Source: a virus. Taken from it: 45,722 nucleotides of DNA. This document shows, one piece after another, positions 5,424-41,010 of the stretch (position 1 is its first letter; each line of letters starts with the position of its first letter). A program made the translations under genes and the position numbers. The stretch spans positions 1 to 45,722 of IMG/VR virus record IMGVR_UViG_3300044823_000144; one strand, given 5' to 3'. The notes beneath the pieces were generated by a model. That model saw nothing but the letters and a program-made list of their open reading frames with translations, did no database searches and was not told the origin of the DNA.

Positions 5424-5744
5424 ATAACCAAGACATTGAAAGTTGATAAATTTTTGCGTAAAGGAAAGTGGAAAAACACGTTTGTGTGCGCCCCGCGACC
5501 CTACGCCGCCGCCGAATTTAGGGGTATGGGGGGTCAAACATAGCCGGAAAGAGACCCTAAGACGGTGTGCCATACTGCCGATGGATGAGAGCCGCTGGGT
5601 AGTCATACCCCTGACTAGCGGGCATGGAGGCGGGCCTGAGTCGGCGTGCATTGCTACGCAATGTCCTTGATCTTCGCCCCGTGTTCTCCGTACTGTGAGT
5701 TCTAGTCCGTTGACCAGTGTGCCAACACACAAGCTAATGCGCTC
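5424..5744. other. Non-coding, structured stretch between terminase genes
   Basis: No convincing gene lies here. It holds a 9-bp inverted repeat (5520-5528 with 5604-5612, AGGGGTATG/CATACCCCT) enclosing a GGGTC/GACCC pair (5531-5535, 5553-5557). A perfect small hairpin CATTGC-TAC-GCAATG lies near 5650-5664, and its right edge carries a plus-strand promoter-like sequence. Packaging sites (pac/cos) often lie beside or within terminase genes, so this is a candidate, but nothing in the sequence proves it. Confidence 0.5.
5710..5738 (+). promoter_or_regulatory. Plus-strand sigma70-like promoter with internal palindrome
   Basis: TTGACC (5710-5715), a 17-base spacer and GCTAAT (5733-5738). The spacer holds the perfect inverted repeat GTGTG-CCAA-CACAC (5717-5730), which could be an operator. 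The predicted transcription start falls on the ATG at 5745. Confidence 0.4.
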
Positions 5745-6419: not shown

Positions 6420-6449
6420 TTGACAAACCCCCAACGTTGATACCACAAT
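6420..6449 (+). promoter_or_regulatory. Plus-strand sigma70-like promoter with perfect -35
   Basis: TTGACA (6420-6425) matches the -35 consensus exactly; CACAAT (6444-6449) is a 4/6 -10 at an 18-base spacing. The predicted start is at or next to the ATG at 6455. TAGGGTA follows the -10, as it does after the promoter at 22921. Confidence 0.45.
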
Positions 6450-6454
6450 AGGGT

Positions 6455-6592
6455 ATGACCAACCTTCTTATGTTGATTCACCAAATCGCCTGCTGGTCTA
6501 CCGAGCGGCTGTGGCATATGTCGCTCATGTTGTTCATCGCACTCATTGTGATCGACTGCGTTATGCTTTTAAGTAAGAAGGCCCAACCATGA
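6455..6592 (+). CDS. Small membrane peptide (45 aa), first of an antisense pair
   Basis: The ORF begins MTNLLMLIHQIACW, has a predicted transmembrane helix about residues 21-40 (HMSLMLFIALIVIDCVMLL) and a KK cytoplasmic end. A promoter with perfect TTGACA stands directly before it, so the message would be leaderless or nearly so. Its stop overlaps the next start as ATGA, a sign of translational coupling. It runs opposite to all neighbouring late genes. Function unknown; a lysis, superinfection-exclusion or membrane-toxin role is only a guess. Confidence 0.5.
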   Translation: MTNLLMLIHQIACWSTERLWHMSLMLFIALIVIDCVMLLSKKAQP

Positions 6593-6720
6593 ATTTCCTC
6601 TTGGGTTGGATGTATTTCTGGTTCTTCCTTTGGGGCTGGATCAGGGTGTGCCGGGGCACTACAACTCATCAAGCTCTTCGTCAGCACGCGCCGGGTGATC
6701 ATCAAAATCCAAATCCATAA
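6589..6720 (+). CDS. Small Trp-rich membrane peptide (43 aa), second of an antisense pair
   Basis: The N-terminal 20 residues (MNFLLGWMYFWFFLWGWIRV) are extremely hydrophobic and aromatic, giving one membrane helix followed by a hydrophilic His/Pro-rich tail. It is coupled to the preceding ORF through ATGA, with AAGG 7 bases before the start. Its 3' end overlaps the 3' end of the minus-strand coding segment at 6659-6823, so the two transcripts would be antisense there. Function unknown. Confidence 0.45.
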   Translation: MNFLLGWMYFWFFLWGWIRVCRGTTTHQALRQHAPGDHQNPNP

Positions 6721-11447: not shown

Positions 11448-13307
11448 ATGAAGATAGCCATTGTCAGCAACATTGATAATGGTGTGGGGCTCCAGAAGGA
11501 TTACGAGCTTCTGAAGGCGTTCCTTGAACGCCGCGGGCATGATGTTACGGGCGTGCATTGGCTATCCGACCACAAGGGCGAGTATGACCTCTGCATCTTC
11601 CTTGAGACAATGGTGGAAGGTTTGCTGGGCCTGAGCAAAAGGCTGTGGTATTTTCCCAATCCCGAGTGGTTGAGGCCTCAAGACGAGCGCATCATGCGCA
11701 AGCACATCGAGAAGGTCTTCGCCAAGACACACGCAGCATACGATTCCCTGTCCAAGAAATTCACGAATGTGCATTACGTGGGCTTCATGGCCGAAGACCG
11801 CATGGACTGCTTGGTGCCCCGCAAGCGGCAGTTCCTCCACATCGGAGGCAATGGCGCATGCCGCAACACCAGCCAAGTGCTGGAGGCGTGGCGCTCCTGC
11901 CGTTATTGGGAAGGCGTTCCCGAAGACCTGCCGCTGATTATTGTGAGTCGCAATGCCGACTACAAGCACGAGGACACGCCCGGCGTCACGCGCAACAAGC
12001 GGCTGGATGATACCGAGATCAAGCGGCTCCAGAACGAGTCCATGTTCCACTTGATGCCCAGCGCCACGGAAGGCTATGGGCATGCGATTCACGAGGCGTT
12101 GAGCGTTGGCGCTTTGCTCATCACCACGGATGCCCCGCCGATGAATGAAATCAAGACGGCGTTCTTTGTTCCAAGCTGCGGCTCGGCTCCCTGCAACAAT
12201 GCGACGCTGTATGAAGTCAACCCGGCGGACATCAGGGAAGCCTGTAATGCAGCAGCGGAAGTGGAAGTTGACGACATACTCGGCTTTTCCAAATTGGCTT
12301 GCGAGGAGTTCGAGCGGGGCAACGAGGAATTTGGGCGGCTGTTCCTGCCGCACCTGACCCGCATGCGCCATGCCGTGGAGAAGCCCGTCATCGCCATACT
12401 GGGAAACTTTGTAGTGCCGTGGTGTACGGAGCAAGATTGGGCATGGTCGTTTGAATCACTCGGCCATAGGGTATTGAAGTTTCAAGAGAATACAGAAAGA
12501 GCCGAAGATGTGTTGGACGCCTGCAAAAACGCCAAAGTTGATCTTTTTTGCTATGTGCACTCCCATGGATTCGTTTCTCCCGGAGAAATGTCTCCCGAAG
12601 ACCTGATAACTGGATTGCGTGCCGCTGGCATTGTCACCGTCTCCCCCCATTTGGATTTGTATTTTGGGCTAAACATAAGCGATGGTCGGGACGCATCGGT
12701 GGGGAAAAGCGCATACTGGAAGACGGATTATGTGATAACCGCCGATGGGTCTTCTCAGGAAAAGTTCCGAGATCGCGGCGTGAACCACGTTCCAATGATG
12801 CCCGGAGTCGTGGCTCGGGACTGCTACGAAGGCAAATCAAGAGAGGATTTCAAAGTCGATGTGGGATTTTGCGGGGCCGGGCCGGGCTATCATGCGGAAT
12901 GGCCGTGGCGGGGAGAAATGATCCGCGCTCTTCAGGATGCCTATGGAAACAGGTTCCGCCAGTTCAATGGAATCAGGGGGCGGGATTTGAATGATCTGTA
13001 TGCATCCGTAAAGGTGCTGGTCGCAGATTGTTGCTTCGCCGGTAAGCCGTATTATATATCAGACCGTTGGCCGGAAACTTGTGGCCGTGGGGGATTCTTG
13101 CTGGCCCCGCAGGTTGAAGGCGTGTGCATTCCGCTGGCTACATTCAAGCCCTGCGATGCCGGGGACATGATCGAGAAAATAGACTACTACTTGGAGCATG
13201 AACAGGAACGGGAACTGATTCGCAGAGCATGCCACGAGCATGTCAAGAACCACGATACCTATACCCACCGTGCCCGGCAAATTTTGAAAATCGCGGGGTT
13301 AAGCTGA
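11448..13307 (+). CDS. Two-domain glycosyltransferase fusion (619 aa)
   Basis: The N-terminal half (1 to about 310) is a GT-B enzyme: MKIAIVSNIDNGVG start, HIGGNG (131-136) and the retaining GT4 signature MPSATEGYGHAIHEAL with the EX7E pair E208/E216. The C-terminal half (about 313-619) begins again with VIAILGNFVVPW and resembles CgeB/glycosyl-transferase group 1 C-terminal domains (VGFCGAGP, GRGGFLLAP, and a YTHRAR helix near the end). Two transferases in one chain could add two sugars in sequence. It opens the glycosylation cassette; the next HNH gene overlaps its stop (TGATG). Acceptor and sugar donors cannot be read from sequence. Confidence 0.8.
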   Translation: MKIAIVSNIDNGVGLQKDYELLKAFLERRGHDVTGVHWLSDHKGEYDLCIFLETMVEGLLGLSKRLWYFPNPEWLRPQDERIMRKHIEKVFAKTHAAYDSLSKKFTNVHYVGFMAEDRMDCLVPRKRQFLHIGGNGACRNTSQVLEAWRSCRYWEGVPEDLPLIIVSRNADYKHEDTPGVTRNKRLDDTEIKRLQNESMFHLMPSATEGYGHAIHEALSVGALLITTDAPPMNEIKTAFFVPSCGSAPCNNATLYEVNPADIREACNAAAEVEVDDILGFSKLACEEFERGNEEFGRLFLPHLTRMRHAVEKPVIAILGNFVVPWCTEQDWAWSFESLGHRVLKFQENTERAEDVLDACKNAKVDLFCYVHSHGFVSPGEMSPEDLITGLRAAGIVTVSPHLDLYFGLNISDGRDASVGKSAYWKTDYVITADGSSQEKFRDRGVNHVPMMPGVVARDCYEGKSREDFKVDVGFCGAGPGYHAEWPWRGEMIRALQDAYGNRFRQFNGIRGRDLNDLYASVKVLVADCCFAGKPYYISDRWPETCGRGGFLLAPQVEGVCIPLATFKPCDAGDMIEKIDYYLEHEQERELIRRACHEHVKNHDTYTHRARQILKIAGLS

Positions 13308-13690
13308 TGCCGTATAAAGACAAAGAAAAACGAAGAATTTCCAACAGAAAAAGTTACCTAGCAAACAGAGAAAAAAATAGAAAAAAAGACAACGAGCGAG
13401 CAAAAGAGTGGCATGACGCCCATCCAGAATTTTACATAGCTTACCGCTACAAGTACACACAAGGAGAGCCCATAGAAAATAAGATCGCCAGACTTGAGGC
13501 GCAGGACTATAAGTGCGCCAACCAAGCTTGTTTGAAACCCATTGATATTACTTCTGGGCATCAAGATCACAACCATGAGACGGGACAAAAACGTGGTGTT
13601 TTATGCGGTCCCTGCAATCACGCACTTGGATTACTAAAAGACAATGTTGGACTTGTTATGGGTTTAGCGGCTTACAGGAGTCTGTCATGA
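13307..13690 (+). CDS. HNH / endonuclease VII-type homing endonuclease (127 aa)
   Basis: A Lys/Arg-rich N-terminus (MPYKDKEKRRISNRK) leads to the nuclease core: CANQAC, then QDHNHETGQKRGVLCGPCNH and LGLLKDN. The DHNHETG...RG.LC..CN pattern is the endonuclease VII fold. The coding sequence is clearly more AT-rich than the glycosyltransferases on both sides, a sign of independent arrival. It overlaps its neighbours by TGATG and ATGA, so it was inserted without breaking either gene. Confidence 0.85.
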   Translation: MPYKDKEKRRISNRKSYLANREKNRKKDNERAKEWHDAHPEFYIAYRYKYTQGEPIENKIARLEAQDYKCANQACLKPIDITSGHQDHNHETGQKRGVLCGPCNHALGLLKDNVGLVMGLAAYRSLS

Positions 13691-14523
13691 CAGTCATCTG
13701 GTACAACGCTCGGGGCTACTGGGATCACACGATCCTGAACCTGTTTTTCGATGCGGACACGAAGTATGTGGATTCGTTTGACAAGCTTGAAGACGATGGC
13801 GCTGTCGTGGTGCTGTGCGCCCGCTGGGCCAAGGACGAGATCGACGAGATCAACCGCCGCCTGAGCCGCCTGAAGTGGGCGGTTGTGTTCTGGACGGGGA
13901 ACGAGGATATGCTGTTCGTGCCCGGTGCCCTCAAGCATCCGAACATGCGGATATGGGTGCAAATGCCCGTGCCGGGGCTCGACCCCGAGTACCGCCGCCT
14001 CCCTAACGGGCCTACGCCGGGCCTCCCCATCGGTATTCCCCCCAAGACGCTCGACTGGGCGTTCTTGGGACAGGTCACGCACCAGAGGCGCAGGGATTGT
14101 CATGATGCCCTCAGCGGGCTTCCCAATGGCTTCCTGTATGGTTCTAACGGCTTCACGCAGGGGTTGCCGCACGCCGAATACCTCCAAAAGCTCGCCGAGG
14201 CTAAAATAGCCCCCTGTCCCAGCGGACCCATGAACCCGGACAGCTTCCGGGTCTACGAGGCGCTGGAGCTTGGCTGCGTGCCCATCGTTGACAGCCGCAC
14301 CGTGAGCGATAGGTTCCCCATGGGTTACTGGGAGACTTTGTTCGGGAACGATTTCCCCCTGCCGCAGATCACGGACTGGAGCACAATCGGCGATGTAATC
14401 GCCCAGCAGCTTGCGTTGTGGCCCGAGAATCAGATCAAATGCTTCGGTTGGTGGGTAGGAGCTAAAGCAAAAATGCAAAAAATTTTCCGGGCGGATTTGG
14501 AGGAGCTTAAACTTGGGGCATAG
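13687..14523 (+). CDS. Exostosin-like glycosyltransferase (278 aa)
   Basis: The C-terminal motif MNPDSFRVYEALELGCVPIV is the typical nucleotide-sugar-binding segment of exostosin-like (GT47) and related GT-B enzymes. DWAFLGQVTHQRRRD at about 124 and FLYGSNGFTQGL are also consistent. The start at 13687 (MTVIWYNARGYW) overlaps the HNH stop as ATGA. It probably transfers a sugar to a glycan acceptor together with the surrounding enzymes. The 3' end overlaps the next HNH-like gene by 11 bases. Confidence 0.75.
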   Translation: MTVIWYNARGYWDHTILNLFFDADTKYVDSFDKLEDDGAVVVLCARWAKDEIDEINRRLSRLKWAVVFWTGNEDMLFVPGALKHPNMRIWVQMPVPGLDPEYRRLPNGPTPGLPIGIPPKTLDWAFLGQVTHQRRRDCHDALSGLPNGFLYGSNGFTQGLPHAEYLQKLAEAKIAPCPSGPMNPDSFRVYEALELGCVPIVDSRTVSDRFPMGYWETLFGNDFPLPQITDWSTIGDVIAQQLALWPENQIKCFGWWVGAKAKMQKIFRADLEELKLGA

Positions 14524-14902
14524 GGAAAGCAACGCAAAATGGTATACCAAAAATAGGGGATATTCACTATCCAAAAGCAGGACGTGGAGAAAAGACCGCC
14601 CCAAAGAGAATGCAGAAACACAACGACTGTGGGCATTGGGGATTAAGGTAAAAGTGTTCACTCACTATGGCCCCAACAAAGAAGTTCGATGTTCTTGGGA
14701 AGGCTGTATGGTCACTGATTTAGACATGCTTTCTTTAGACCACATTAACAACGATGGTGCGCAGCAACGCAAGTCGGGATTTCCAAGTGGTAAGAATCTC
14801 TATAGGAAACTTATGAACGATGGTTACCCGGCGGGTTTCCAAACCATGTGCATGAATCATCAGCATAAAAAGCTACAACTCAAGCACAGAGGGGAAATCT
14901 AA
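14513..14902 (+). CDS. HNH-like homing endonuclease (129 aa), TTG start
   Basis: The core reads CSWEGC, then LSLDHINNDGAQQRK and YRKLMNDGYPAGFQTMCMNHQHKK, which fits an HNH nuclease with DH and CxNH motifs. The start is TTG at 14513 with an excellent GGAGGAG 7 bases upstream. It is AT-richer than its neighbours. The stop overlaps the next ATG (TAATG). It is the second endonuclease inside the glycosylation cassette and of a different HNH subtype from the one at 13307. Confidence 0.75.
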   Translation: MGHRESNAKWYTKNRGYSLSKSRTWRKDRPKENAETQRLWALGIKVKVFTHYGPNKEVRCSWEGCMVTDLDMLSLDHINNDGAQQRKSGFPSGKNLYRKLMNDGYPAGFQTMCMNHQHKKLQLKHRGEI

Positions 14903-15648
14903 TGAGCTACCGTGACGACATCTCCATCATGATTCCAGTATCAGTTATACCATCTCACCCGCTGACTCATGTGTTGGATTGGACAATAGCTTCGGCACGG
15001 AGCCATCTTTTTAGCGCACCGATCTATTTAATGTTCGACGGTGTGAGAGTGGAGCAGGCTGACCGCAAAGAAGCTTACGAGGAGTTCAAGCGGCGTCTTG
15101 TGTTCCCGCCATGGGCTGGACCAGTACATAGGGTTGAGTTCGCCACGTTCAATCACCAAGCATCAATGCTTCGAGAGGCACTCAAACAAGTGACAACGCC
15201 TTTGGTGTTGTTTTTGGAGAGCGACTGGCTGCTGCTTGAGCCCATACCTTGGGACGCCATGGCGCAGACCATACTGGAGCGGCAGGCGGATGTGATCAGG
15301 CTGCACCAAGACGCCGCCATCCACCCGGAGCACGCCCATTTGTTCCTTGAGCACACGGAGATCAATGGCATTCCGTTGCGCAAGATGAAAGTCTTCTGGG
15401 CTCAGCCACACCTTGCCTATACGGATTGGTACAGAAAGCAACTGGCGGAGAAGTTCACCTCCTATTGCAGGTGCTTCATCGAGGACAGGCTGTATGGGAT
15501 CAACCTCGACACGCCTTGGGAGGACAACAAGGTTTTCATGTACGATCCTCCGGGCACGCTGAAGAGAGTAAGCCATACGGACGGCAGGGGCAAGGACGAG
15601 ACCGGGGCTCCGTTGGTTACCAAGTGGGAAGAGAAGCAGGTGTTCTGA
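14902..15648 (+). CDS. Glycosyltransferase-like protein, GT-A/family 2 type (248 aa)
   Basis: The N-terminus ISIMIPVSVIPSHP and the segment TTPLVLFLESDWLL (about 97-110) resemble the nucleotide-binding core and acidic metal-binding motif of GT-A transferases. Mid-region residues (IRLHQDAAIHPEH, FWAQPHLAYTDW) are compatible with an acceptor-binding half. The start overlaps the HNH stop; its stop overlaps the FkbM gene start (TGATG). The exact family is less certain than for its neighbours. Confidence 0.65.
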   Translation: MSYRDDISIMIPVSVIPSHPLTHVLDWTIASARSHLFSAPIYLMFDGVRVEQADRKEAYEEFKRRLVFPPWAGPVHRVEFATFNHQASMLREALKQVTTPLVLFLESDWLLLEPIPWDAMAQTILERQADVIRLHQDAAIHPEHAHLFLEHTEINGIPLRKMKVFWAQPHLAYTDWYRKQLAEKFTSYCRCFIEDRLYGINLDTPWEDNKVFMYDPPGTLKRVSHTDGRGKDETGAPLVTKWEEKQVF

Positions 15649-16382
15649 TGGATACGTTCACGAAACTGGATGAAGCAAAGTGGTCGCGGCGCATGATTGG
15701 CGGGCAATGGGTTTTTGTCCCGTCGTTTGAAGACCCGAACGATCTTGAGCATTGGGAGATATCCACCTATCTCTCCATGCAATCGCTGCTCAAGCCCGGC
15801 ATGCTGTTCTACGAGATCGGTGCGTACACGGGCTGGTGCGATGTTCCCATCACCCGCTTTGTGGGCGGAGCGGAAAACATGGTGCTCGTGGAGCCCAATC
15901 CGATTAACTGGCCGAACATTAAAGCAACTCTGGAAAAGAACTCTTGCGGAATCCCGCGAGCGACATTCATGGGATTTGCGGGAACCGACGAGAAGTTTTT
16001 ATCCCCGGTGGTTCATAATGGATACCCCACCGAGCCTGACTATGGTAAGCTGATGGAGGTGTGCTCCTTCAGGTTGCTGGACGAGCAGGGGAATAAAGAC
16101 AACACCGCTTGCATCACGCTGGATAATCTTGTTGCGCTTTGCGGAGCGCCGGACGCAATCAACGTGGATGTCGAGGGAGCGGCCCTCATCGTGCTCCAGT
16201 CGGCCACACAGACTTTGCGCAGGTATCGTCCCATGATCTGGGTCAGCATCCACCCAATCACCTTGCGGGAGACTACCAAACTCCTTCCTCCGGAAGAGGG
16301 CGTGCACAACTACCTGAAGCAATATGGCTACCGGGGAACGTTCCTCGGGAAAGACCACGAGGAGCACTGGGTTTATGTCTGA
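15648..16382 (+). CDS. FkbM-family SAM-dependent methyltransferase (244 aa)
   Basis: SAM-binding motif I is LFYEIGAYTGWCDVPITRFV (about 52-71), followed by acidic VLVEPNP (motif II). Later INVDVEGAALIVLQSA and WVSIHPI match the C-terminal motifs of FkbM O-methyltransferases, which usually methylate sugars. The start at 15648 overlaps the previous stop (TGATG); a longer frame upstream lies inside the previous gene. It overlaps the next start by 8 bases. Likely role: methyl-capping of the glycan made by this cassette. Confidence 0.8.
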   Translation: MDTFTKLDEAKWSRRMIGGQWVFVPSFEDPNDLEHWEISTYLSMQSLLKPGMLFYEIGAYTGWCDVPITRFVGGAENMVLVEPNPINWPNIKATLEKNSCGIPRATFMGFAGTDEKFLSPVVHNGYPTEPDYGKLMEVCSFRLLDEQGNKDNTACITLDNLVALCGAPDAINVDVEGAALIVLQSATQTLRRYRPMIWVSIHPITLRETTKLLPPEEGVHNYLKQYGYRGTFLGKDHEEHWVYV

Positions 16383-17484
16383 TGCCACCATCATTCTATG
16401 CTGCTACAACCGGGCGAGGCAGCTTGACCGGACGCTGGAAAGCATAGCGGCGCAGGACTACACCGACGTGGATACCATTGTTGTTGAAGACGGCAACGAT
16501 GGTCGGACGGAAGAGATTGCCCGCAAATGGGGAGCCATCTACATCCACCATGAACGAGCCGACGAGTGGCCTACGTTCCAAAGCATTTCGTTGATCCGCA
16601 ACATCGGCATCAGGGCGGCGCAAACGCCTGTCATTATACTGCAAGATGCGGAGATGATGTATGAGAACAAAGATGCTGTGAGCAACTTGATCGGTTCTTT
16701 ATGGGTTCAGCGGCTAGGAAATTCTCCCGATAAAATGGTTGCAGCGGGCATGGTAAAATCGCTGGATAGGTGGGGCGCATTTGAGCGGTGGTTCACGCAT
16801 CCCACATATTGCCCCAACTCGGCGGGCGGAAGCCCTCGCGCCATGATGCGGCAGACAGTGCTGGAGATGGGTGGATTCGAGGAGCGGTTCTTTGGGTACG
16901 GATTCGAGGACAACTACTTCACTTGGCTCATGCTGAAGAAAACATCCCTCGTCTATATCCCGAGCGTCGTGGCCGCCCACCAGTGGCACGAGCCCACGGG
17001 CGGAGCCTACGAGCCGATCACAGGCTCATCCAACGAAGCGTTGGTTCACCGATTGACTTCGGAAATATCATGGCACGCCATGCCGCCTGTTGCCAATCTT
17101 CCTATACCCACGTATGAATCAGTAAGCTACGATGAGGTAAGGAAGCTCGTCCAAGCCGCCGTGCCTTTGTTTGCAAACGGCGATTGGCAAAGCTGGGCAC
17201 AAGCCTACTTGCAAGATGACCATGGCGACATCAACGCTTCCAGCGTGGCGCGGTACAAAGCAGCATCCGCAGCGCCGCATGACAGGGAAGAGCATGTCGC
17301 CATGCGTGCTGCGCAAGCGGCATGGGCATTGGAATGGATTGACCGCTGCGATGCGGAGTGTGCGTTGCATCCCGAACGCGCAGCACGCATCCGATTGTGC
17401 GGGGAAAATTTCACAGCCGACGCCTACCTGTCTGTGGAGATCGGCAACCGGGTTCTGAATGGCGAAGAAGTACGCCTCTGGTAA
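16375..17484 (+). CDS. Family 2 glycosyltransferase with galactosyltransferase-like C-terminal motif (369 aa)
   Basis: MSDATIILCCYNRARQLDRT is the standard GT2 opening. VDTIVVEDGNDG and IILQDAEMM (DXE-type metal site, about 90-98) form the GT-A core. MGGFEERFFGYGFEDNYF (about 168-185) matches the catalytic segment of polypeptide-GalNAc/chondroitin-type transferases. A helical C-terminal third (about 260-369) is unrecognised. The start overlaps the FkbM stop. This is one of the clearest sugar transferases here. Confidence 0.82.
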   Translation: MSDATIILCCYNRARQLDRTLESIAAQDYTDVDTIVVEDGNDGRTEEIARKWGAIYIHHERADEWPTFQSISLIRNIGIRAAQTPVIILQDAEMMYENKDAVSNLIGSLWVQRLGNSPDKMVAAGMVKSLDRWGAFERWFTHPTYCPNSAGGSPRAMMRQTVLEMGGFEERFFGYGFEDNYFTWLMLKKTSLVYIPSVVAAHQWHEPTGGAYEPITGSSNEALVHRLTSEISWHAMPPVANLPIPTYESVSYDEVRKLVQAAVPLFANGDWQSWAQAYLQDDHGDINASSVARYKAASAAPHDREEHVAMRAAQAAWALEWIDRCDAECALHPERAARIRLCGENFTADAYLSVEIGNRVLNGEEVRLW

Positions 17485-17492
17485 GGAGAACT

Positions 17493-18263
17493 ATGTCAAA
17501 CAATAAGTTGCATCACGATTACGTTTGGTCTCGCATGAGGAGGGAACATCCTGAGTTCACTCACGACCATGACGTTTTTGACGACGACTATGCGGTTGAG
17601 ACTTTGCTGCTCGGAGAATACATAGGCTTCAAGCCGTTCGCCGGGGCCAAAGTAATGGACATCGGCGCGAACGTCGGCATCCTCACGGCTTTCTGGGCGC
17701 TGAATGGGTGCGATGTGACTTCCTACGAAGCCGATCCCGTCACCTACGGCATCCTCGTGGGCATGTTGGAGAAGACTCGGCTCCGATGGTTTCACCACGA
17801 CGGGGGGAATGAGCATTACGATGGTGTTCAAGCCATCAACGCCGCGGTCTACAAATACGACGGCACCATACCTTTCCTCGGAGCTACGGGCGGCATAGGA
17901 AATCCGCTGCGGAACGGAGCCATACAGGTTGCGGACATGGGCGACAAGCGATTGGACGCTCCGTCCACTCCCTGTGTCACATTGGCTACGGCGCTCGGAA
18001 CCACGGTCTGGAACTGCGTTAAGTTCGACATTGAAGGAGCGGAGTTCGAGACGCTGCTGGCGGTTCCGATTGAAACCCTGCGGAATCAAGTAAAGTATAT
18101 GCAGGTGGAACTCCACAACGGCTGGGCCGATGGCGTGCTGTACAAGAAGCTTATCGACAAGCTGGAATCGGTGTACGATGTCAGCGGACCTGTCAACGGC
18201 AATGACGCCGAATCCGCGGAATGGATCGGGAGGTACCATTGGGTGCAATGCAAAGGGAAGTAG
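17493..18263 (+). CDS. FkbM-like methyltransferase (256 aa)
   Basis: Motif I is AKVMDIGANVGILTAFWALN (about 51-70), then VTSYEADPVTYGIL (motif II). CVKFDIEGAEFETLLAVP and YMQVELHN are the characteristic FkbM C-terminal motifs. AAGGAG is 4 bases before the ATG at 17493, and the gene is separated from the previous stop by 8 bases. It is only distantly similar to the FkbM gene at 15648, so the two probably modify different positions. Confidence 0.8.
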   Translation: MSNNKLHHDYVWSRMRREHPEFTHDHDVFDDDYAVETLLLGEYIGFKPFAGAKVMDIGANVGILTAFWALNGCDVTSYEADPVTYGILVGMLEKTRLRWFHHDGGNEHYDGVQAINAAVYKYDGTIPFLGATGGIGNPLRNGAIQVADMGDKRLDAPSTPCVTLATALGTTVWNCVKFDIEGAEFETLLAVPIETLRNQVKYMQVELHNGWADGVLYKKLIDKLESVYDVSGPVNGNDAESAEWIGRYHWVQCKGK

Positions 18264-19180
18264 TTTTCGTCCCAACCTATCATCGGAGCGCATTCCTGTG
18301 GTGCTGCCTTGAGGCTATCCGCAAGGCGGAGCCCGATATCCAGATCATCGTGCAGCCCGACAGGGGCACCGAGGAACTGGAAGTTTGCAACAGGTTCAGG
18401 GCGGAGCAACGATTCGTGACGAAGCACACTTACCACGGAAATAGCTTCAACATGATGGAAGGACTGCGCTATTGCTGCGAAGCGGGATACGACCGGGTGT
18501 TCGTGGTTGAGGACGATTGTATTGTTGATCCCACGTTCTTCGGATGGGCTAGGAATGCACTGGACAATCCCAAACCGTGGATGGGTGCGCCGTTCGCAGC
18601 GAGCGGCTGGATGTATAGTCCGGATATGCCGGACGAGGAAGGGCCGGATGTGCTGCTTAACTGGTATTTGTCCGTATGCTCGGCTATTCCCCGCCGCAGC
18701 TTAGAGCGGATCACAGTGCACGCACAGCACAACTACTACGTCAATATGAAAAAGTATGTGGACGAGACTTTTCCCCGAGACCCGCAAGTCGGAACCATGC
18801 ATTACGAGCAGGACGGGCTGATACTGAGAATAGCGAACTCGGCTGGGGAGAGGTTCGCATGGCCACGCAAGCCAAGGGCTCTTCATCTGGGCTGGACTGG
18901 GTACCACATGCCTCATGGCAAGATGCCGCAAGCGGAATTAAGGAAACAAGTGCTGGTTGTGAAGATGGCTATAGAGAACCCGGAAATCCTGAGGCAGTTG
19001 ATGGCCGGAAGCGAGCCGCCCGCTGTAGGGGAATGCCGTTCCTGCGGCAGGGCATTGGTAAGCACGAACAAAAAAGCAGCGATGGTGTGCGTCGGCTGCT
19101 TTCACAAGCAGAATCCAAACGCTCCTATCGCTGCCAAATCCCACTATTACATTAAACGTTCAGAGGAAGCACAGCCGTGA
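18239..19180 (+). CDS. Glycosyltransferase (GT-A) with C-terminal zinc ribbon (about 313 aa)
   Basis: The core reads VVFVPTYHRSAFLWCCLEAI, then YDRVFVVEDDCIVDPTFFGW, with VEDDC as the DXD metal site. Residues near the C-terminus (CRSCGRAL and CVGCF) form a four-cysteine ribbon, an unusual appendage on a glycosyltransferase. Start choice is uncertain: TTG at 18239 has GGGAGG at ideal spacing; ATG at 18248 (MQREVVF) and 18221 are alternatives. Its 3' end overlaps the convergent minus-strand gene by 29 bases. It is the last gene of the plus-strand arm. Confidence 0.75.
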   Translation: MGAMQREVVFVPTYHRSAFLWCCLEAIRKAEPDIQIIVQPDRGTEELEVCNRFRAEQRFVTKHTYHGNSFNMMEGLRYCCEAGYDRVFVVEDDCIVDPTFFGWARNALDNPKPWMGAPFAASGWMYSPDMPDEEGPDVLLNWYLSVCSAIPRRSLERITVHAQHNYYVNMKKYVDETFPRDPQVGTMHYEQDGLILRIANSAGERFAWPRKPRALHLGWTGYHMPHGKMPQAELRKQVLVVKMAIENPEILRQLMAGSEPPAVGECRSCGRALVSTNKKAAMVCVGCFHKQNPNAPIAAKSHYYIKRSEEAQP

Positions 19181-19749: not shown

Positions 19750-20103
19750 TCAGGATTTGCTGGCCATGATGTCGCAGAGGGTGCTGATTTTGCCGCTCAT
19801 CTCGGCTTGGCTGATCTCCATGCGCCCAAGGATGTCGTTGGTCTTGACCGATTCCGTTTCGATATGCTCCAAGTGGTTAGTCGCCTGAACAACGGTTGCT
19901 TGCTCGATCTTGTCTAGCTTCTGGAGAGCATCAGCGGTTTTGTCAGCGGCGATTTTGAAAGCCTTGCGCATAACCCACGTTCCTAGACCGATAAGGATCG
20001 AAAGAAGGGTTGTGACACACAGGACCGCCCAGTGCAGAAGCGTGACAATATCATCATGCGACAGGTGGTTGAGTTGCTGTAGAGTGGCATAGAGTCTGAT
20101 CAC
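19750..20103 (-). CDS. Single-pass membrane protein with coiled coil (117 aa), holin- or tail-associated candidate
   Basis: One strong transmembrane helix (about 22-45, TLLHWAVLCVTTLLSILIGL and following) precedes a basic stop-transfer (VMRKAFK) and a long soluble helical region (about 48-110) with heptad-like Leu/Ile/Met spacing. The start is GTG at 20103, two bases after the tail-fibre stop. Such a layout occurs in phage holins of the N-out/C-in single-helix type and in DUF2730-like proteins. No endolysin was found nearby, so the lysis role is a guess. Confidence 0.5.
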   Translation of the reverse strand: MIRLYATLQQLNHLSHDDIVTLLHWAVLCVTTLLSILIGLGTWVMRKAFKIAADKTADALQKLDKIEQATVVQATNHLEHIETESVKTNDILGRMEISQAEMSGKISTLCDIMASKS

Positions 20104-22184: not shown

Positions 22185-22880
22185 TTAGGCGCTTACCTTG
22201 CCGATAATCGTCGGGCTCGACCCGCCGACCACGGTGCCGCAACTGAGGCGGTAGAACCTCGCGCTGCTGTTCTGGACTTGCAGGAAGCCGCCCGTCTGGA
22301 CGCCAGCGGCGACAGAAGCCACGGTGGCGACATCGTAATACGTCTGGTCGTCGTCCGAATCTTGAAGTGTGACTACGACTGAAGTCGGGAGGCTGGGGAA
22401 GCTGACCTGCGCGGTAACTGTGCGTGCCTGATCGATCCGTGGATCATTAAAAGGCACGGTAACCTGCAAAGAAATCAAACTGGATGTCAGGGCATCCGCC
22501 GTTTCGGCGACCGGGAGAACCACGGTACCCGCCCCCGCTGCGCTGGCGATTGTGCCCACGGCATTCACGGTGTAGGCTATTGTGCCTGTGCTCAGATCGC
22601 CCGTTGTGAATCCCGAGACGCCCGTGACAGTAGCGCCGACAGCATTGATGCTGGAATTGCTCGCGCCTTGCACGGTGATAAGCTGGGCAGTTGTTGGCGG
22701 GACTCCCGCTGTCAGCCCCACCGTGATCGTCACGGTATTCACCGAGGCGCTGATATTCGTAATGTTGGCGAGTGTCGGGCTGGTCGTGGCACTATACGTT
22801 CCAAAGAGGTATTGCGGCCTGCCGGGTACCAAAAGCGGACGGTTGGCGAGGCTTGCTGGAAGGGTCAAAAATGCTGGCAT
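22185..22880 (-). CDS. Beta-rich virion protein (231 aa)
   Basis: Begins MPAFLTLPASLANRPL with AGGAG 7 bases upstream. It is Thr/Val/Ala/Gly-rich, and residues about 40-125 (ITNISASVNTVTITVGL, ITVQGASNSSINAVGATV) resemble the beta modules of the large tail proteins further along this operon. The C-terminal part contains a YDVATVASV segment. A fibre-associated or decoration protein is likely; function is not established. It is preceded on the other strand by the antisense unit at 22921-23187. Confidence 0.55.
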   Translation of the reverse strand: MPAFLTLPASLANRPLLVPGRPQYLFGTYSATTSPTLANITNISASVNTVTITVGLTAGVPPTTAQLITVQGASNSSINAVGATVTGVSGFTTGDLSTGTIAYTVNAVGTIASAAGAGTVVLPVAETADALTSSLISLQVTVPFNDPRIDQARTVTAQVSFPSLPTSVVVTLQDSDDDQTYYDVATVASVAAGVQTGGFLQVQNSSARFYRLSCGTVVGGSSPTIIGKVSA

Positions 22881-22920: not shown

Positions 22921-22948
22921 TTGACATCCGCCCGCTACCGAGTATCTT
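22921..22948 (+). promoter_or_regulatory. Plus-strand sigma70-like promoter with perfect -35
   Basis: TTGACA (22921-22926), a 16-base spacer, and TATCTT (22943-22948, 4/6). TAGGGTA follows, as after the promoter at 6420. The predicted start falls at the Shine-Dalgarno of the ORF at 22964, so the leader would be very short. Confidence 0.5.
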
Positions 22949-22963
22949 AGGGTAGGAGGCTTT

Positions 22964-23074
22964 ATGCTCTTTGCTTACTTAAAATTCGCTTCGTTCTCGA
23001 TAAAAGCGTTCTTCGCCGTCGTGCTGGGTTTGGCGCTGCTCATGGGCGGCTGCTTGTTCATCGTCACGCGCTAG
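22964..23074 (+). CDS. Small membrane peptide (36 aa), first of an antisense pair
   Basis: MLFAYLKFASFSIKAFFAVV begins the peptide; a hydrophobic helix (about 15-35) ends GLALLMGGCLFIVTR. Cys30 after LMGG is a weak lipobox-like site. The ribosome site is a perfect AGGAGG 4 bases before the ATG, within TAGGAGGCTTTATGCT, which is repeated exactly before the second ORF. A promoter with perfect TTGACA lies directly upstream. It is on the opposite strand to the flanking virion genes. Function unknown; lysis, spanin-like or host-membrane roles are possible. Confidence 0.6.
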   Translation: MLFAYLKFASFSIKAFFAVVLGLALLMGGCLFIVTR

Positions 23075-23082
23075 GAGGCTTT

Positions 23083-23187
23083 ATGCTTGAAATCCTTGCT
23101 GCCCTAATCCTTTTCGTCCTGCTTTGCGCTTGGCGTCCCACAGAGCCTAAATGGACGCAAAAGTTCAAGGCATGGTGCGCCCGCTAG
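23083..23187 (+). CDS. Small membrane peptide (34 aa), second of an antisense pair
   Basis: MLEILAALILFVLLCAWRP gives one short membrane helix (2-17), followed by a basic, Trp-rich tail ending FKAWCAR. It has the same ribosome site and context (TAGGAGGCTTTATGCT) as the preceding ORF, and the TAG of the first ORF forms part of that site. Its stop overlaps the stop of the convergent minus-strand gene (shared CTAGTAG). Repetition of the translation signal argues that both are expressed. Confidence 0.6.
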   Translation: MLEILAALILFVLLCAWRPTEPKWTQKFKAWCAR

Positions 23188-24563
23188 TAGGCGTTCTCCA
23201 CAATATCCTTCAGGCTATGACCCGCTTTCAAAGCACGCCTGATGGTCTCTTCCCTCAAGTCTTTGAGCTTGGCTCCTCCGGTATCAATCTTGAGTCTGTT
23301 CGCCGCCTTGGCAACATCATCGTTACCAAGCTTCTGAATTTGATTCATGAGTTCCTTGTCCCCCTTGGCAGCATCCAAGGCTTCTTCGGAATTGGTGTGG
23401 GCGAACTGGCGCTCAACCTTAGTCAAGTCCGGACGCCTAATACTAAGTTCGCTCGGTTTCCCAACTTCTCCCAAAGGCTTACCTAATTGTTCTCCGAGGG
23501 GCACATCGGGCTTCAATTGCGGAACCCCGGCTTGCTTGCCGATCTCAGTTTCAATAGCCTTCAATGGACCTCCCTTAGGTACGGTAGCGGATTCTTCTGT
23601 GGAAAGCCCTCTTGGAGGCATGGCTTCGCGGGTCGTGGTGTCAAATTGTTTCCAAACGGGGATGCGCTCCTTTACTGGCAGGGGTTTAGCAGAAACGGAA
23701 CCCAGCGGGGAAGGCTTTGGAGCCTCAAACGGCGTGCTTTTGCCCACAGGAATCTCTTCCGATACCTTACCCAGCACCCCAGCCGCCTCTTCTTTTTCTC
23801 CTGATGCAAGTAGGCTTTCCGCCAGCCCCTTAAGTGTGGGAATCTTGGGAACTTTGCCACCAACACCACCATACAAACCGCCAATTAAGCCTCCTGCGGT
23901 TCTTCCGATCTTCCGTCCCTTTTCCTCGTTGCCCAGAAGGCTGCCCCCCAATCCGCCGATGTCACCACCCGCATACTCTCCCACCTTGGCTCCAAGATAG
24001 CTCTTGCCCAGCACCCCCAACATGCCGAGCGGATTAGCGACGGCTTCCGCCCCCATGATGGAAAGCATGGTCTGCCCTACCGCCATTGCCGGGCCAGCCG
24101 CAAGAGCATAAGGCAGCATCTTGATATCGTGCTTATGCTCAGTCTTTATCTGTTCAGGAGTCACACTCCTCCCGGCTTGGGTGGCTCTTGCCATAAACTC
24201 CGCATCCGATTCTCCCGGCTGCTTCATCAGGTATTCGCCTCTGCTGAAATCACGCCCTGCTCCAGAAGCACTGACATCATAGGCAGGCGTATTCGCCGGG
24301 ACTTTTTTCTGGAAGCCGTGCTTTTTCTGAGCTTCTTCCGCCTGATCGGCGGGAATAGTGTAGGGCTCCCCCTTGGGGCTGAGCATATCGACACCGGGCT
24401 TCAGCCCGCGTTTCTGGGCATCGTTCACATGCTCCACGGGAATGTCGTATACGTCTCCCGTCTCAGGGTGTACCATTGTTTGGGTAGGCTTCGGGGCTTC
24501 CGGCGTTGGAGGAGTCGGCCCCCTGCCTAGAATGTAGCCGAGCGCATTGTTTAGAGTCCCCAT
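23184..24563 (-). CDS. Internal virion/ejection-like protein with glycine-rich hydrophobic hairpins (459 aa)
   Basis: The middle region has small-residue-rich segments (LGVLGKSYLGAKVGEYAGG and IGRTAGGLIGGLYGGVGG, about 180-240), like membrane-penetrating parts of phage ejection proteins. The N-terminus is Pro-rich and the C-terminus basic and helical (LREETIRRALKAGHSLKD). It is the last of three consecutive genes after a GNAT-fold protein, matching the place of T7 gp16. No transglycosylase motif was recognised, so any cell-wall activity is unproven. Confidence 0.55.
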   Translation of the reverse strand: MGTLNNALGYILGRGPTPPTPEAPKPTQTMVHPETGDVYDIPVEHVNDAQKRGLKPGVDMLSPKGEPYTIPADQAEEAQKKHGFQKKVPANTPAYDVSASGAGRDFSRGEYLMKQPGESDAEFMARATQAGRSVTPEQIKTEHKHDIKMLPYALAAGPAMAVGQTMLSIMGAEAVANPLGMLGVLGKSYLGAKVGEYAGGDIGGLGGSLLGNEEKGRKIGRTAGGLIGGLYGGVGGKVPKIPTLKGLAESLLASGEKEEAAGVLGKVSEEIPVGKSTPFEAPKPSPLGSVSAKPLPVKERIPVWKQFDTTTREAMPPRGLSTEESATVPKGGPLKAIETEIGKQAGVPQLKPDVPLGEQLGKPLGEVGKPSELSIRRPDLTKVERQFAHTNSEEALDAAKGDKELMNQIQKLGNDDVAKAANRLKIDTGGAKLKDLREETIRRALKAGHSLKDIVENAY

Positions 24564-35900: not shown

Positions 35901-36185
35901 TCAAAATCGTTTTTCTAAGTATTCCGCAGCTAAGCGAAGAAGGAGGGGGTTATCTTCAAGAAGCCCCATGGCCCTGTTACATTTACCATGAATAATTCCT
36001 CTAATTTCACCTGTGGTATGGTTGTGGTCTACTGGGGGCTGTCTCTGCTCACCACCTAAGGGTCTTTTACAGGCTAAGCACAAACCAGCCTGCAACCTCC
36101 ACATCTCATTATACCGATCTAAGGAAATGCCGAAACGATATTTAAGGCGAGCGGATCGCCTATGCTCTTTATTCTTTGACGACAT
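35901..36185 (-). CDS. HNH / endonuclease VII-type homing endonuclease (94 aa)
   Basis: MSSKNKEHRRSARLKYRFGI leads to CLACKRPL, then VDHNHTTGEIRGIIHGKCNRAMGLLEDNP, and ends AAEYLEKRF: the compact endonuclease VII core. The start at 36185 has GGGGAGGGGAA upstream; an open frame to 36206 would run into the structured RNA. Closely similar in motif order to the HNH at 40555. It is flanked by a terminator-like hairpin and a structured RNA. Confidence 0.85.
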   Translation of the reverse strand: MSSKNKEHRRSARLKYRFGISLDRYNEMWRLQAGLCLACKRPLGGEQRQPPVDHNHTTGEIRGIIHGKCNRAMGLLEDNPLLLRLAAEYLEKRF

Positions 36186-36205
36186 TTCCCCTCCCCAATA
36201 AGGCA

Positions 36206-36278
36206 TCGGTAGCTATGAAGTCCACGCTTGCGCGGGGGCTCAGAAACCCGCCCGAAGGCGAGACCCCTTCGCTACCGA
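36206..36278 (-). ncRNA. Compact structured RNA candidate with UUCG- and GNRA-type loops
   Basis: An 8-bp outer stem (36206-36213 TCGGTAGC with 36271-36278 GCTACCGA) encloses two hairpins. One is CGCC-UUCG-GGCG (minus strand, 36249-36260) extended by a GGGG/CCCC helix. The other is CGC-GCAA-GCG (36225-36234) with CC/GG below. The loops are the stable UUCG and GNRA types on the minus strand, so that strand is probably the RNA. It lies 21 bases before the HNH start, downstream of the 299-aa gene. Known class not recognised. Confidence 0.55.
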
Positions 36279-38096: not shown

Positions 38097-38431
38097 AGCT
38101 TCACCATCTTCTCCAAGGCGTGCAGATGATCCACAGCATGGGTTTCCCACAACCCCGCTGCTGCCCTTAGGTCCGTCTTGAGCAGGTTGGCTGTCTTGGA
38201 AGAATTTTCAAACAGGGCTTTTTCCGCAGCGTCGCTGACTTGGGCATACAAGCTGCGCCCATTGGCTGAAGGCACGGTCAGTCCGAATACGGTCTTGGCG
38301 TTGTCGAAGCCGCCGTCCAGTTTGATCAGAGGATGCAGCCACACGCCATTGATGCACAGTAGGTCGATGCCGGGAGGCAAAACTTCCTGCGAGAGTCGGC
38401 GGAAAAATTCGTTATAGAGATTTCTACTCAT
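38093..38431 (-). CDS. Hypothetical protein (112 aa)
   Basis: Start at 38431 (MSRNLYNEFFRRLSQEVLPP) with GAGGA 8 bases upstream; overlaps the groS stop by 8 bases. The N-terminal half carries DLLCINGVWLHPLIKLDGGF; the C-terminal half is helical and ends HALEKMVKL. A head-completion role is possible from its place after the capsid and groS genes, but nothing specific is recognised. Confidence 0.5.
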   Translation of the reverse strand: MSRNLYNEFFRRLSQEVLPPGIDLLCINGVWLHPLIKLDGGFDNAKTVFGLTVPSANGRSLYAQVSDAAEKALFENSSKTANLLKTDLRAAAGLWETHAVDHLHALEKMVKL

Positions 38432-38924
38432 ATTGGCATTCCTCACCTTGACGATGATAATCTTTGTTGGTGCAAGCCCAAGCCTTGCCGTCCCTAAATT
38501 CACCGTGATCTCCGGGGGCGGCAAGTTTATGTTCCACTCCCCTGATGTCTTGGATTCGGACGATGTAAAGCTCCTCGCCGTCCCTCACAAATTTCTCGGC
38601 GTTGTATTCCCCGAAGAGAACGCGGTCGCCTACATCCACGAAATTCCTGAGCGGAAAATAGTGGTTCCCGAGGATCACAAGGTCGCCGATGGCGACTACC
38701 TCGCCTTTGTTGGTCTGTTGGCGGAATTTGTCTGGCAAGCCGAGCTTGGTCTTCTGCTCGTCCTCGACACGGCGGATGAGCACACGGTCAAGGATGGGCT
38801 TGAAAGGTTCGTACAAATTATAACTTGAACCATGGTGGCTTTCAGGATCAAAGGGGCATTCGGGATCAAATTCGCATTGCTTGGGAACGGAGGAACGAGC
38901 GTCCTCCACTTTTAGGTCTGGCAT
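38424..38924 (-). CDS. groS: Phage-encoded GroES-like co-chaperonin (166 aa)
   Basis: The core (about 40-132) reads KPILDRVLIRRVEDEQKTKLG, GEVVAIGDLV, VDVGDRVLFGEYNAEKFV and GEELYIVRIQDIRGV, the usual cpn10 layout; LGLPD lies where the mobile loop that caps GroEL is expected. N-terminal (1-40) and C-terminal (133-166, Cys/His-containing) extensions make it much longer than the usual ~97 residues. It starts behind GGAGACTCAGA, right after the capsid terminator. With the groL gene it can assist folding of the capsid or other virion proteins. Confidence 0.85.
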   Translation of the reverse strand: MPDLKVEDARSSVPKQCEFDPECPFDPESHHGSSYNLYEPFKPILDRVLIRRVEDEQKTKLGLPDKFRQQTNKGEVVAIGDLVILGNHYFPLRNFVDVGDRVLFGEYNAEKFVRDGEELYIVRIQDIRGVEHKLAAPGDHGEFRDGKAWACTNKDYHRQGEECQYE

Positions 38925-38953
38925 TCTGAGTCTCCTGTACTGCCTATTCAATG
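38925..38953 (-). promoter_or_regulatory. GGAGACTCAGA ribosome-site element and CATTGAATAG box upstream of groS
   Basis: Copy 3 of GGAGACTCAGA (38925-38935), preceded on the minus strand by CATTGAATAG (38944-38953). The block lies between the capsid terminator and groS, where a new promoter would be needed if termination is efficient. Confidence 0.45.
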
Positions 38954-38964
38954 ATCCGGTAGTC

Positions 38965-38999
38965 AAAAAAGAAGCCCCGGACTTGTGATCCGGGGCTTC
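38965..38999 (-). terminator. Strong intrinsic terminator after the major capsid gene
   Basis: Perfect 11-bp stem GAAGCCCCGGA (38999-38989, minus strand) with TCCGGGGCTTC, 7-base loop, followed by six T (38970-38965). It lies 26 bases after the capsid stop and is the clearest terminator of the genome. Confidence 0.9.
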
Positions 39000-39025
39000 C
39001 CTAGCTAAGTTGATCGATTGGCCTA

Positions 39026-40357
39026 TTAGACAGTCGGTACGCCTGCGTTCTGAATGTAAAGCTGCATACGCGGTGCGCTGCATGCGATGTTCAGGGACGA
39101 AGAGTAGGCGAACATGAACGACGTGTAATACGTGCCCGTCGCCGAACTGGTGTCAGGTACCGGAACCACAGTCCCGGCATCGCCGAAGTTGTAGATTTCG
39201 GGAGCCACTAGCTCGCCGAGATACCAGCTTGGGAAGTGGAGCAGGTCAACGCGGTTAGGCTGTGCAGCGTATCCGACGTTATATTTGCGACCAGCGAACT
39301 GGTCTTGGAAGGTCTTGCGGCCCATGTCGAGCGGCTTGTCTGTCCCATCGCCGGGGCGTTGGAACGCCTGATTGACGTTGAAGAAGAGGTTGCCGATGGC
39401 ATATGCCTGTTCGGGCGGTCCGTACCACTGGGATTCCTGAATGGACTCGGCGTCCTGACCGAGGGCGCGTCCGAGCAGGATTTCTGCACGGAGCCCAAGG
39501 CCCGGAGTGATCGCTCCGCCATTGAGGTTGATCGTCGGGGTGGAAATACGGCTCGGATACAAGGCGCGGTTGATGCCCGCCAAAGTGCCCGTGTTGCCGT
39601 TGACATCCCAAGCCCTGATACCCATGATCGAGTTGCCTGCGGCACCGGATGATCCGTTGATCATGATGAGGTAGCCGTTGGTAACTGCTCCGGGCAAGCT
39701 TGCGTTGAAGAACAGCGTTTGGCTGACAACATCAACGTATGTAATGACCGAAGGCGTGGAACTGGCGACAGTGCCGCCGACGCTGGGGTAGAACAATACC
39801 TGTTGCTGATCCACGAATCCAGCGACGGTGTTCAAGCCGCTGATGTAGGACGGCACGGTAGCCGATGAATAAGTCGGTTGGACGGTGGCGGTCGTCGGGA
39901 TCGTGTCGATCACGCCCGAGCCGTCAGAGTTGAACTGACCCTCTAGGGTGTTGAGGAAGGACTTCAAAGAGTTCTTTAACTCTTGGGCCTGAACAGAAAA
40001 TAAGGCCCTGTTTTTGCCTTCTGTCGACTTCTTGGCGAGCCAGCTAACTTCGCAGACTGAGAAAGTCCCCACAGGCGAGAGTACGAAACCCTGCCAGTTG
40101 GAACCAGTGCCCGGCCCAAGGCTGGAGCGATCTCCAGATGCCTGAACGCCGGGTGCCCCACGCTGAACACGGAACGGAACACGGAATGAACCGCGAGCCG
40201 TCGATCCGGCGAGGGTCGTATTTGAGATTGGGATGTACGTCGCGTTGGCCTTGAAGAGGTTATAGAGCCCTTGGAACTGACCGATTGTATCGGGGATTTC
40301 CTTTGCAAAGGCTTCAACTTCAACGGCTTCGACGTTTGCTTCGAGTAATGCAGCCAT
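39026..40357 (-). CDS. Major capsid protein (443 aa)
   Basis: MAALLEANVEAVEVEAFAKE start, long beta-rich body (FRVPFRVQRGAPG, WLAKKSTEGKNRALF, MGIRAWDVNGNTGTLAGINR, QWYGPPEQAYAIGNLFF) and C-terminal FAYSSSLNIACSAPRMQLY. Length, the position after scaffold and groL, a downstream intrinsic terminator and lack of other candidates make it the capsid protein. Family (HK97-fold subgroup) cannot be named by eye. GGAG lies 13 bases upstream of the ATG, longer than usual. Confidence 0.75.
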   Translation of the reverse strand: MAALLEANVEAVEVEAFAKEIPDTIGQFQGLYNLFKANATYIPISNTTLAGSTARGSFRVPFRVQRGAPGVQASGDRSSLGPGTGSNWQGFVLSPVGTFSVCEVSWLAKKSTEGKNRALFSVQAQELKNSLKSFLNTLEGQFNSDGSGVIDTIPTTATVQPTYSSATVPSYISGLNTVAGFVDQQQVLFYPSVGGTVASSTPSVITYVDVVSQTLFFNASLPGAVTNGYLIMINGSSGAAGNSIMGIRAWDVNGNTGTLAGINRALYPSRISTPTINLNGGAITPGLGLRAEILLGRALGQDAESIQESQWYGPPEQAYAIGNLFFNVNQAFQRPGDGTDKPLDMGRKTFQDQFAGRKYNVGYAAQPNRVDLLHFPSWYLGELVAPEIYNFGDAGTVVPVPDTSSATGTYYTSFMFAYSSSLNIACSAPRMQLYIQNAGVPTV

Positions 40358-40554: not shown

Positions 40555-41010
40555 TTAAGTGATGTTCGGCGGAACGGACTCTTCAAGGTATTCAGCGGCT
40601 CGTCTAAGAAGCTCTGGACTCTCGTTGAAGTAGCCCAGTCCGCGATTGCAGCCGTTGTGTAAAAAACTACGTAATTTCCCGGTGGTGTGGTTGTGGTCTA
40701 AAACTGGAGCAAGCCTACCAAAGTATGGATCGGCAACAAACGGCTGTTTGCATAAACCACACAAATTACTCTGAGATGCCAATTTTGCAGAATGCTCCTT
40801 TGGGGTGAGATTATATGCCTTCTTTAAGTGGGCTTTTTTCTGAGCTTTACGGGCTATTTTCTTGGAGGCTTCCGGGTTGTTCAACTTCCACAAACGATTT
40901 TTCTCGTCCATCGCTCGCTTGTTGTTCTGATACCGTTTTGAACGATACGCCCTTCCATCGGATGTCTTAAGGCCTTTATTCCAAGGAGTACTCCCCTTTT
41001 TTGGTGCCAT
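40555..41010 (-). CDS. HNH / endonuclease VII-type homing endonuclease (151 aa)
   Basis: Very basic N-terminus (MAPKKGSTPWNKGLKTSDGR, including the WNKGL motif often found in homing-nuclease DNA-binding tails), then CGLCKQPF, LDHNHTTGKLRSFLHNGCN and ELLRRAAEYLEESV. AGGAG lies upstream of the ATG at 41010. It is AT-rich and sits between groL and the capsid gene. Its core is similar to the HNH at 35901. Confidence 0.87.
   Translation of the reverse strand: MAPKKGSTPWNKGLKTSDGRAYRSKRYQNNKRAMDEKNRLWKLNNPEASKKIARKAQKKAHLKKAYNLTPKEHSAKLASQSNLCGLCKQPFVADPYFGRLAPVLDHNHTTGKLRSFLHNGCNRGLGYFNESPELLRRAAEYLEESVPPNIT

Follow-up and report, generated by a model that had tools for sequence, protein, structure and literature searches.

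A small plus-strand cassette of two genes for membrane micropeptides occupies the 303-base gap between two minus-strand virion genes of an uncultured phage (the window, the whole stretch of 45,722 nucleotides that was analysed, is a virus record of IMG/VR). It is best read as an independently promoted antisense moron of inner-membrane micropeptides, with superinfection exclusion or another membrane role as its likeliest function. It is very probable that the cassette truly codes for membrane peptides and is a moron. The full chain, from a coding moron through to superinfection exclusion, draws on analogy with known phages and is given a probability of about one half. The same place in related phages holds changing occupants, and several of these are again small membrane peptides encoded antisense to the virion operon.

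The cassette begins with a predicted sigma-70-like promoter, which the original prediction had described as a plus-strand site with a perfect TTGACA ahead of ORFs of 36 and 34 codons (Table 1). The sequence is as described. The site matches 10 of 12 consensus positions, with the -35 hexamer complete, and is the top plus-strand match in a 6-kb stretch; 2.8 sites of at least 9/12 are expected by chance in 6 kb, so the promoter call is weak when taken alone. The SD (AGGAGG) is located approximately at the predicted 5' end of the RNA. Both ORFs start within an identical 16-mer, TAGGAGGCTTTATGCT, again as had been claimed, with copies at 22953 and 23072, and no further copy occurs in the window when up to three mismatches are allowed. 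The first triplet of the second copy is the TAG stop of ORF1, and the overlap of this stop with the second SD makes translational coupling of ORF2 possible. The ORF2 stop in turn shares bases (CTAG) with that of the minus-strand gene at the left border. Each of the two peptides has one hydrophobic helix. A tandem duplication of the whole unit is ruled out: similarity between the two units ends with the 16-mer, which is thus no remnant of a larger duplicated stretch. A lipoprotein reading of ORF1 (LLMGGC) was also rejected on inspection, since the Cys is followed by no more than a short tail, most of it hydrophobic. Morons are expressed independently, from a promoter of their own and often with their own terminator; here a promoter-like sequence is present and a sequence scan downstream of ORF2 found no terminator.

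Table 1. Features of the antisense cassette, its surroundings and related loci (window positions unless a locus is named)
Feature	Position	Strand	Remarks
Sigma-70-like predicted promoter, TTGACA-16-TATCTT	22921..22948	+	sequence scan
-35 TTGACA, 16-nt spacer, TATCTT	22921-22926 (-35); 22943-22948 (TATCTT)	+	
Short leader	22949..22963	+	AGGGTA at 22949-22954 (common to the 6420 unit), then AGGAGG CTTT ATG
ORF1, 36-aa single-span membrane peptide	22964..23074	+	MLFAYLKFASFSIKAFFAVVLGLALLMGGCLFIVTR
Second copy of TAGGAGGCTTT	23072..23082	+	TAG in this copy is the ORF1 stop
ORF2, 34-aa membrane peptide with basic C-terminal tail	23083..23187	+	MLEILAALILFVLLCAWRPTEPKWTQKFKAWCAR
Right border of slot, 231-aa all-beta virion-type protein	22185..22880	-	conserved in 16 relatives
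Left border of slot, 459-aa Ala/Gly-rich virion-operon protein	23184..24563	-	putative ejection protein
1361-1850-aa multidomain proteins of relatives	L067:6770-12322, L068:9462-14552, L070:3596-7681		polyvalent-type, in virion operon
Second antisense unit, TTGACA..AGGGTATG	6420..6720	+	hydrophobic ORFs of 45 aa (6455-6592) and 43 aa (6589-6720)
Glycosyltransferases and two FkbM-type methyltransferases	11448-19180	+	antisense cluster beyond tail fibre
117-aa protein, one N-terminal TM and coil	19750..20103	-	downstream of tail fibre gene; phrog_736, E 4.5e-5, function unannotated

The two ORFs are not of a kind that chance readily produces. Only three AGGAGG-N(3-10)-ATG signals occur in the window, and two of them belong to ORF1 and ORF2. 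The hydrophobic helix that had been noted in each peptide stands out in that the 17-residue hydropathy peaks (2.69 for ORF1 and 2.60 for ORF2) rank first and second among all window ORFs of 22-75 codons that follow an SD, and of 325 ORFs with 25-60 codons only 2 have a value of at least 2.6. Dinucleotide shuffling of the gap produced one such ORF in 2 of 3000 cases and two in none (0/3000). The full codon scores of both ORFs are within the span covered by real phage genes; relative to non-coding frames they lie at the 98th percentile for ORF1 and at the 92nd for ORF2. The earlier description of an antisense pair within the virion operon stands, with separate promotion as a prediction, and the pair looks real and translated. 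Neither Pfam nor PHROG (no match below E 0.1) yielded a family for the window peptides or for the peptides of two relatives described below (G001 and L075).

Two further sets of tiny membrane genes occur in this family of phages. The first is a second antisense unit in the window, at 6420, in which the predicted -10 is likewise followed by AGGGTA, as originally remarked; the arrangement TTGACA-N(20-26)-AGGGTA occurs exactly twice where 0.02 occurrences would be expected, for a pattern chosen post hoc. Its 45-aa ORF encodes a TM peptide, while the 43-aa ORF is aromatic-rich and overlaps the end of the 45-aa ORF. Because the predicted -10 ends only 5 bases before the ATG, the mRNA of this unit would be nearly leaderless. 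The second is a 27-aa TM peptide whose ORF follows a GGAGG SD and lies upstream of terminase in both G002 and G003 (L010:4228-4311 and L011:817-900); the two versions differ by 6 codon changes, 3 of them synonymous.

The virion genes of the window are almost all on the minus strand, and include terminase, GroEL/GroES and a tail fibre that carries a Peptidase_S74 chaperone. The 231-aa protein to the right of the cassette has a predicted all-beta fold (pLDDT 82) with no confident structural match. The protein to the left is without a family match, and as a query it retrieved nothing. In three of the relatives (G012, G015 and G021) the left-border position is held by very large multidomain proteins, all of which contain DUF7178 and two of which contain DUF3293; one also has a GNAT acetyltransferase domain and a sub-threshold SAM-lyase match. 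Such mixtures resemble polyvalent proteins, which are thought to be injected along with phage DNA (PMC5512222), and the left neighbour may therefore be an ejected protein. No match to the 231-aa neighbour, the capsid-type protein, the portal, the 19750 protein or the G002 cassette proteins was found among annotated phages, and a search for relatives in genome contigs found none.

The capsid-type protein has 75% identity to its G001 counterpart, and its gene is flanked within the virion operon by those for GroES and GroEL (38424-39083 and 41045-42685, minus strand). Three endonuclease VII genes (PF02945-type; 4974-5732, 35901-36206 and 40555-41010, minus strand) are scattered through the virion region and are perhaps homing-type insertions. 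A histidine phosphatase gene (PF00300; 44487-45107, minus strand) is also part of the structural operon, with a counterpart of 56% in G001. Beyond the tail fibre of G001 (L008:9869-12713), where the window carries its glycosyltransferases, a C5 DNA methyltransferase-like gene, a gene for a 414-aa protein and a Vsr-like gene can be read from the sequence, and this region would be a second cargo site.

The slot that contains the cassette is variable among relatives. Portal alignment gave 46 loci, to which other proteins used as queries added more, and the slot between the genes of the 23184 and 22185 types was read in 16 phages, all of them metagenomic contigs that are possibly incomplete. In nine of the 16 (G012, G015, G022, G024, G027, G029, G030, G031 and G032) the slot is empty, with a gap of 0-70 bases, which suggests that the cassette is dispensable. 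Two phages (G010 and G021) have an HNH-like gene there, judged from N-terminal sequence alone, and one (G028) has a sense-strand TM ORF. Three other phages (G001, G026/L075 and G002) carry small antisense ORFs of other sequence.

The slot of G001, a phage with 54% identity to the window in the 231-aa neighbour protein, contains a single antisense ORF of 28 aa (MRKMNPAVALLLFILNPLFFFIYWLRCR) whose stop overlaps the neighbour's stop (TTAG). Upstream of this ORF, the -10 region AGTATCTAAGG is in register with the -10 region of the window, and the upstream AGTATCTAAGGCATAGAGG is in register with AGTATCTTAGGGTAGGAGG in the window. The likeness of the two promoter regions is suggestive, with a plain local alignment that is equalled by 68 of 500 shuffles. 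In G026/L075 an antisense 41-aa ORF (MLLFLVCSVVILVWLVWFDLKSQKARRRRGDSESDPFDRYL) is preceded by TATACT and GGAGG. The occupancy of G002 is more complex and consists of three antisense ORFs of 70, 78 and 69 aa. The first product begins with a signal-peptide-like segment, and its PHROG match is phrog_29674 (E 1.6e-17, function unannotated); it is the one of the three that is not a TM peptide and appears to be exported. The second combines a TM segment with a coil, and the third has two hydrophobic helices and an ORF that overlaps the neighbour's 3' end.

In all three phages the slot ORFs end at the same neighbour's stop or overlap it and are closely preceded by an SD and a -10-like hexamer, with no clear TTGACA -35 upstream. 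When each filled gap is shuffled, a comparable ORF arises in approximately 1 in 1000 cases. The 117 intergenic gaps of 100-900 bases found in these phages contain few antisense membrane micro-ORFs, with the slot as their principal location. The slot peptides show no detectable homology among phages; the best pairs, G001 with L075 and ORF2 with G001, are equalled by 46/500 and 56/500 shuffles, respectively. On a protein tree of the 231-aa neighbour the antisense state needs three changes, which indicates that slot occupancy has been gained or lost repeatedly. The 16-mer duplication that was to be looked for in relatives is not conserved; conserved instead are the slot itself, its orientation and the membrane character of what it encodes.

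These features can be combined into a model in which a two-gene cassette with its own promoter was inserted antisense in the late virion operon, at a recurrent cargo slot between the gene for the last large, presumably ejected internal protein and the tail-tip/tail-fibre genes. Sigma-70 transcription from ~22955 would give an mRNA with its 5' end nearly at the SD, from which ORF1 would be translated and ORF2 by coupling. Both peptides would be inserted in the host inner membrane as single-span proteins, with the basic C-terminal tails of ORF2 and of the L075 peptide probably facing the cytoplasm. There they may keep the genomes or proteins of related phages from entering, in the manner of P22 SieA and HK97 gp15. 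As the promoter is separate and on the opposite strand, expression early or from a prophage, with the late operon silent, is possible, and late transcription would cross the cassette as antisense RNA and silence it. Prophage expression is a proposal only, since the window yielded neither an integrase nor a resolvase; G002 carries an integrase.

Some task other than exclusion, such as early host takeover, anti-defence or modulation of host membrane proteins, would be served by an antisense membrane moron of identical anatomy and slot distribution. The similar tiny TM peptides elsewhere in the family, namely the pair at 6420 and the 27-aa peptide of G002 and G003, fit such a role as well. Nothing specific speaks against it, and the neighbouring gene and the P22 analogy merely tilt the balance to exclusion, so that another task is possible although on the unlikely side.

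A lysis device, in which the two peptides would form a holin-antiholin pair or be small lysis peptides of the amurin type, is improbable. Paired hydrophobic single-span peptides would suit it, as they would resemble small phage holins and pinholins in being short hydrophobic peptides in a tailed phage, and Pfam recognised no endolysin among the window ORFs scanned. However, lysis genes are expected on the late strand and the cassette is antisense to the late operon. G002, G027 and G030 encode a Phage_lysozyme on that strand, past the tail fibre region, and G002 has it together with an antisense slot cassette. Small TM genes occupy the late strand beyond the tail fibre in several relatives and in the window. 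Unlike holins, the pair is dispensable in most relatives, given that lysis is needed and 9/16 have nothing in the slot; it also lacks any holin family match in Pfam or PHROG and has no endolysin beside it. With the relatives' lysozyme and a small TM gene on the late strand and the slot mostly empty, lysis is possible but not favoured. Of the proposed 'lysis, membrane or exclusion device', the membrane and exclusion parts are thus retained, and the lysis part gives way to the lysozyme that coexists with the G002 cassette and to the TM-plus-coil gene at 19750 in the window. The product of that gene is a holin- or spanin-like candidate, which leaves the statement that there is 'no ordinary lysis cassette' only half right.

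Still less probable is a type I toxin-like unit, in which the mRNA for a hydrophobic toxic peptide would be neutralised by overlapping read-through of the tail operon. Like Hok, Ldr, Ibs and Fst, the slot ORFs encode tiny single-span hydrophobic peptides (28-41 aa) with an RNA running antisense, here fully antisense to the flanking operon. Type I toxin mRNAs are mostly structured, whereas the unit RNA is less structured than its shuffles (z +1.69). Neither Pfam (Hok/Ldr/Ibs/Fst-type) nor Rfam gives a match, no dedicated antisense RNA promoter is seen, and two tandem genes would be unusual for such a system.

The antisense position and a promoter that is better conserved than the rest between the window and G001, at the suggestive level already given, could also point to a non-coding antisense RNA or a promoter that tunes the adjacent tail gene, with incidental ORFs. 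This is very unlikely in view of the complete SD-spacer-ATG on both ORFs, a hydrophobicity unreached by shuffles, the gene-like codon scores and a unit that stops at the neighbour's stop instead of running across its coding region. The lack of an Rfam match and the folding score led to the rejection of a structured RNA. Chance ORFs within a non-functional spacer, which would fit a promoter score that is by itself near background and the lack of a close relative showing purifying selection, are scarcely credible against shuffles that never gave two such ORFs and three other phages with rare ORFs at the same locus.

A more far-reaching form of the moron reading is speculative and rather doubtful. 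The dedicated antisense slot by the ejection genes might be refilled repeatedly with unrelated, possibly de novo, membrane peptides of 28-41 aa. No smaller exclusion or entry-blocking proteins would then be known; each would be adapted to the ejection protein next to it, and late transcription would silence it. If the moron reading is right, the P22-type slot, in which an antisense membrane gene abuts ejection genes, would be a convergent trait of unrelated phages. The slot could then hold peptides smaller than gene callers annotate, and a class of exclusion peptides could be found by position and not by homology.

The original prediction regarded the unit as absent from the usual phage catalogue. 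This finds no support: the arrangement is that of a classic moron slot with P22 sieA as the closest parallel (PMC2629481, PMC10883804). A moron is defined by a fixed location within a conserved late operon, by contents that vary there and by separate promoters (PMC2629481). In P22-like phages the 'ant moron' between gene 16 and the tailspike gene 9 is the sole moron site of the morphogenetic clusters, with ten types among sixteen genomes and none in some of them (PMC2629481). HK97 gp15 (Cumby et al. 2012, as cited in PMC10883804) is a moron-encoded predicted inner-membrane exclusion protein, and whether it excludes an infecting phage depends on the tail tube/tape measure genes which that phage carries (PMC10883804); by contrast with the two-gene cassette, it is a single gene, and HK97 is a siphovirus.

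The differences from P22 concern size and neighbours. P22 SieA has 164 aa and three predicted TM helices, whereas the window peptides of 36 and 34 aa have one helix each and fall short of the SieA family size (~160 aa, at least three TM helices). BLASTP gave no alignment of SieA with ORF2 or with the G002 69-aa product. The antirepressor region of the P22 slot is absent from the window, and the gene next to the slot is the tailspike in P22, as compared with the 231-aa virion protein and then the tail fibre in the window. The likenesses are in the arrangement. In P22 (NC_002371) sieA is the first gene in the slot and ends 22 bases from gene 16, and, like the cassette with its predicted promoter and putative ejection-protein neighbour, it is antisense to the late operon, has its own promoter, lies tail-to-tail with the last ejection-protein gene and is upstream of the tailspike. 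Its product is an inner-membrane protein, as is predicted for the cassette peptides, and the contents of the slot are highly variable among relatives (PMC2629481, PMC10883804). The parallel extends beyond the slot, where gtrABC follows the tailspike in P22 in the way that the antisense glycosyltransferase cluster follows the tail fibre in the window.
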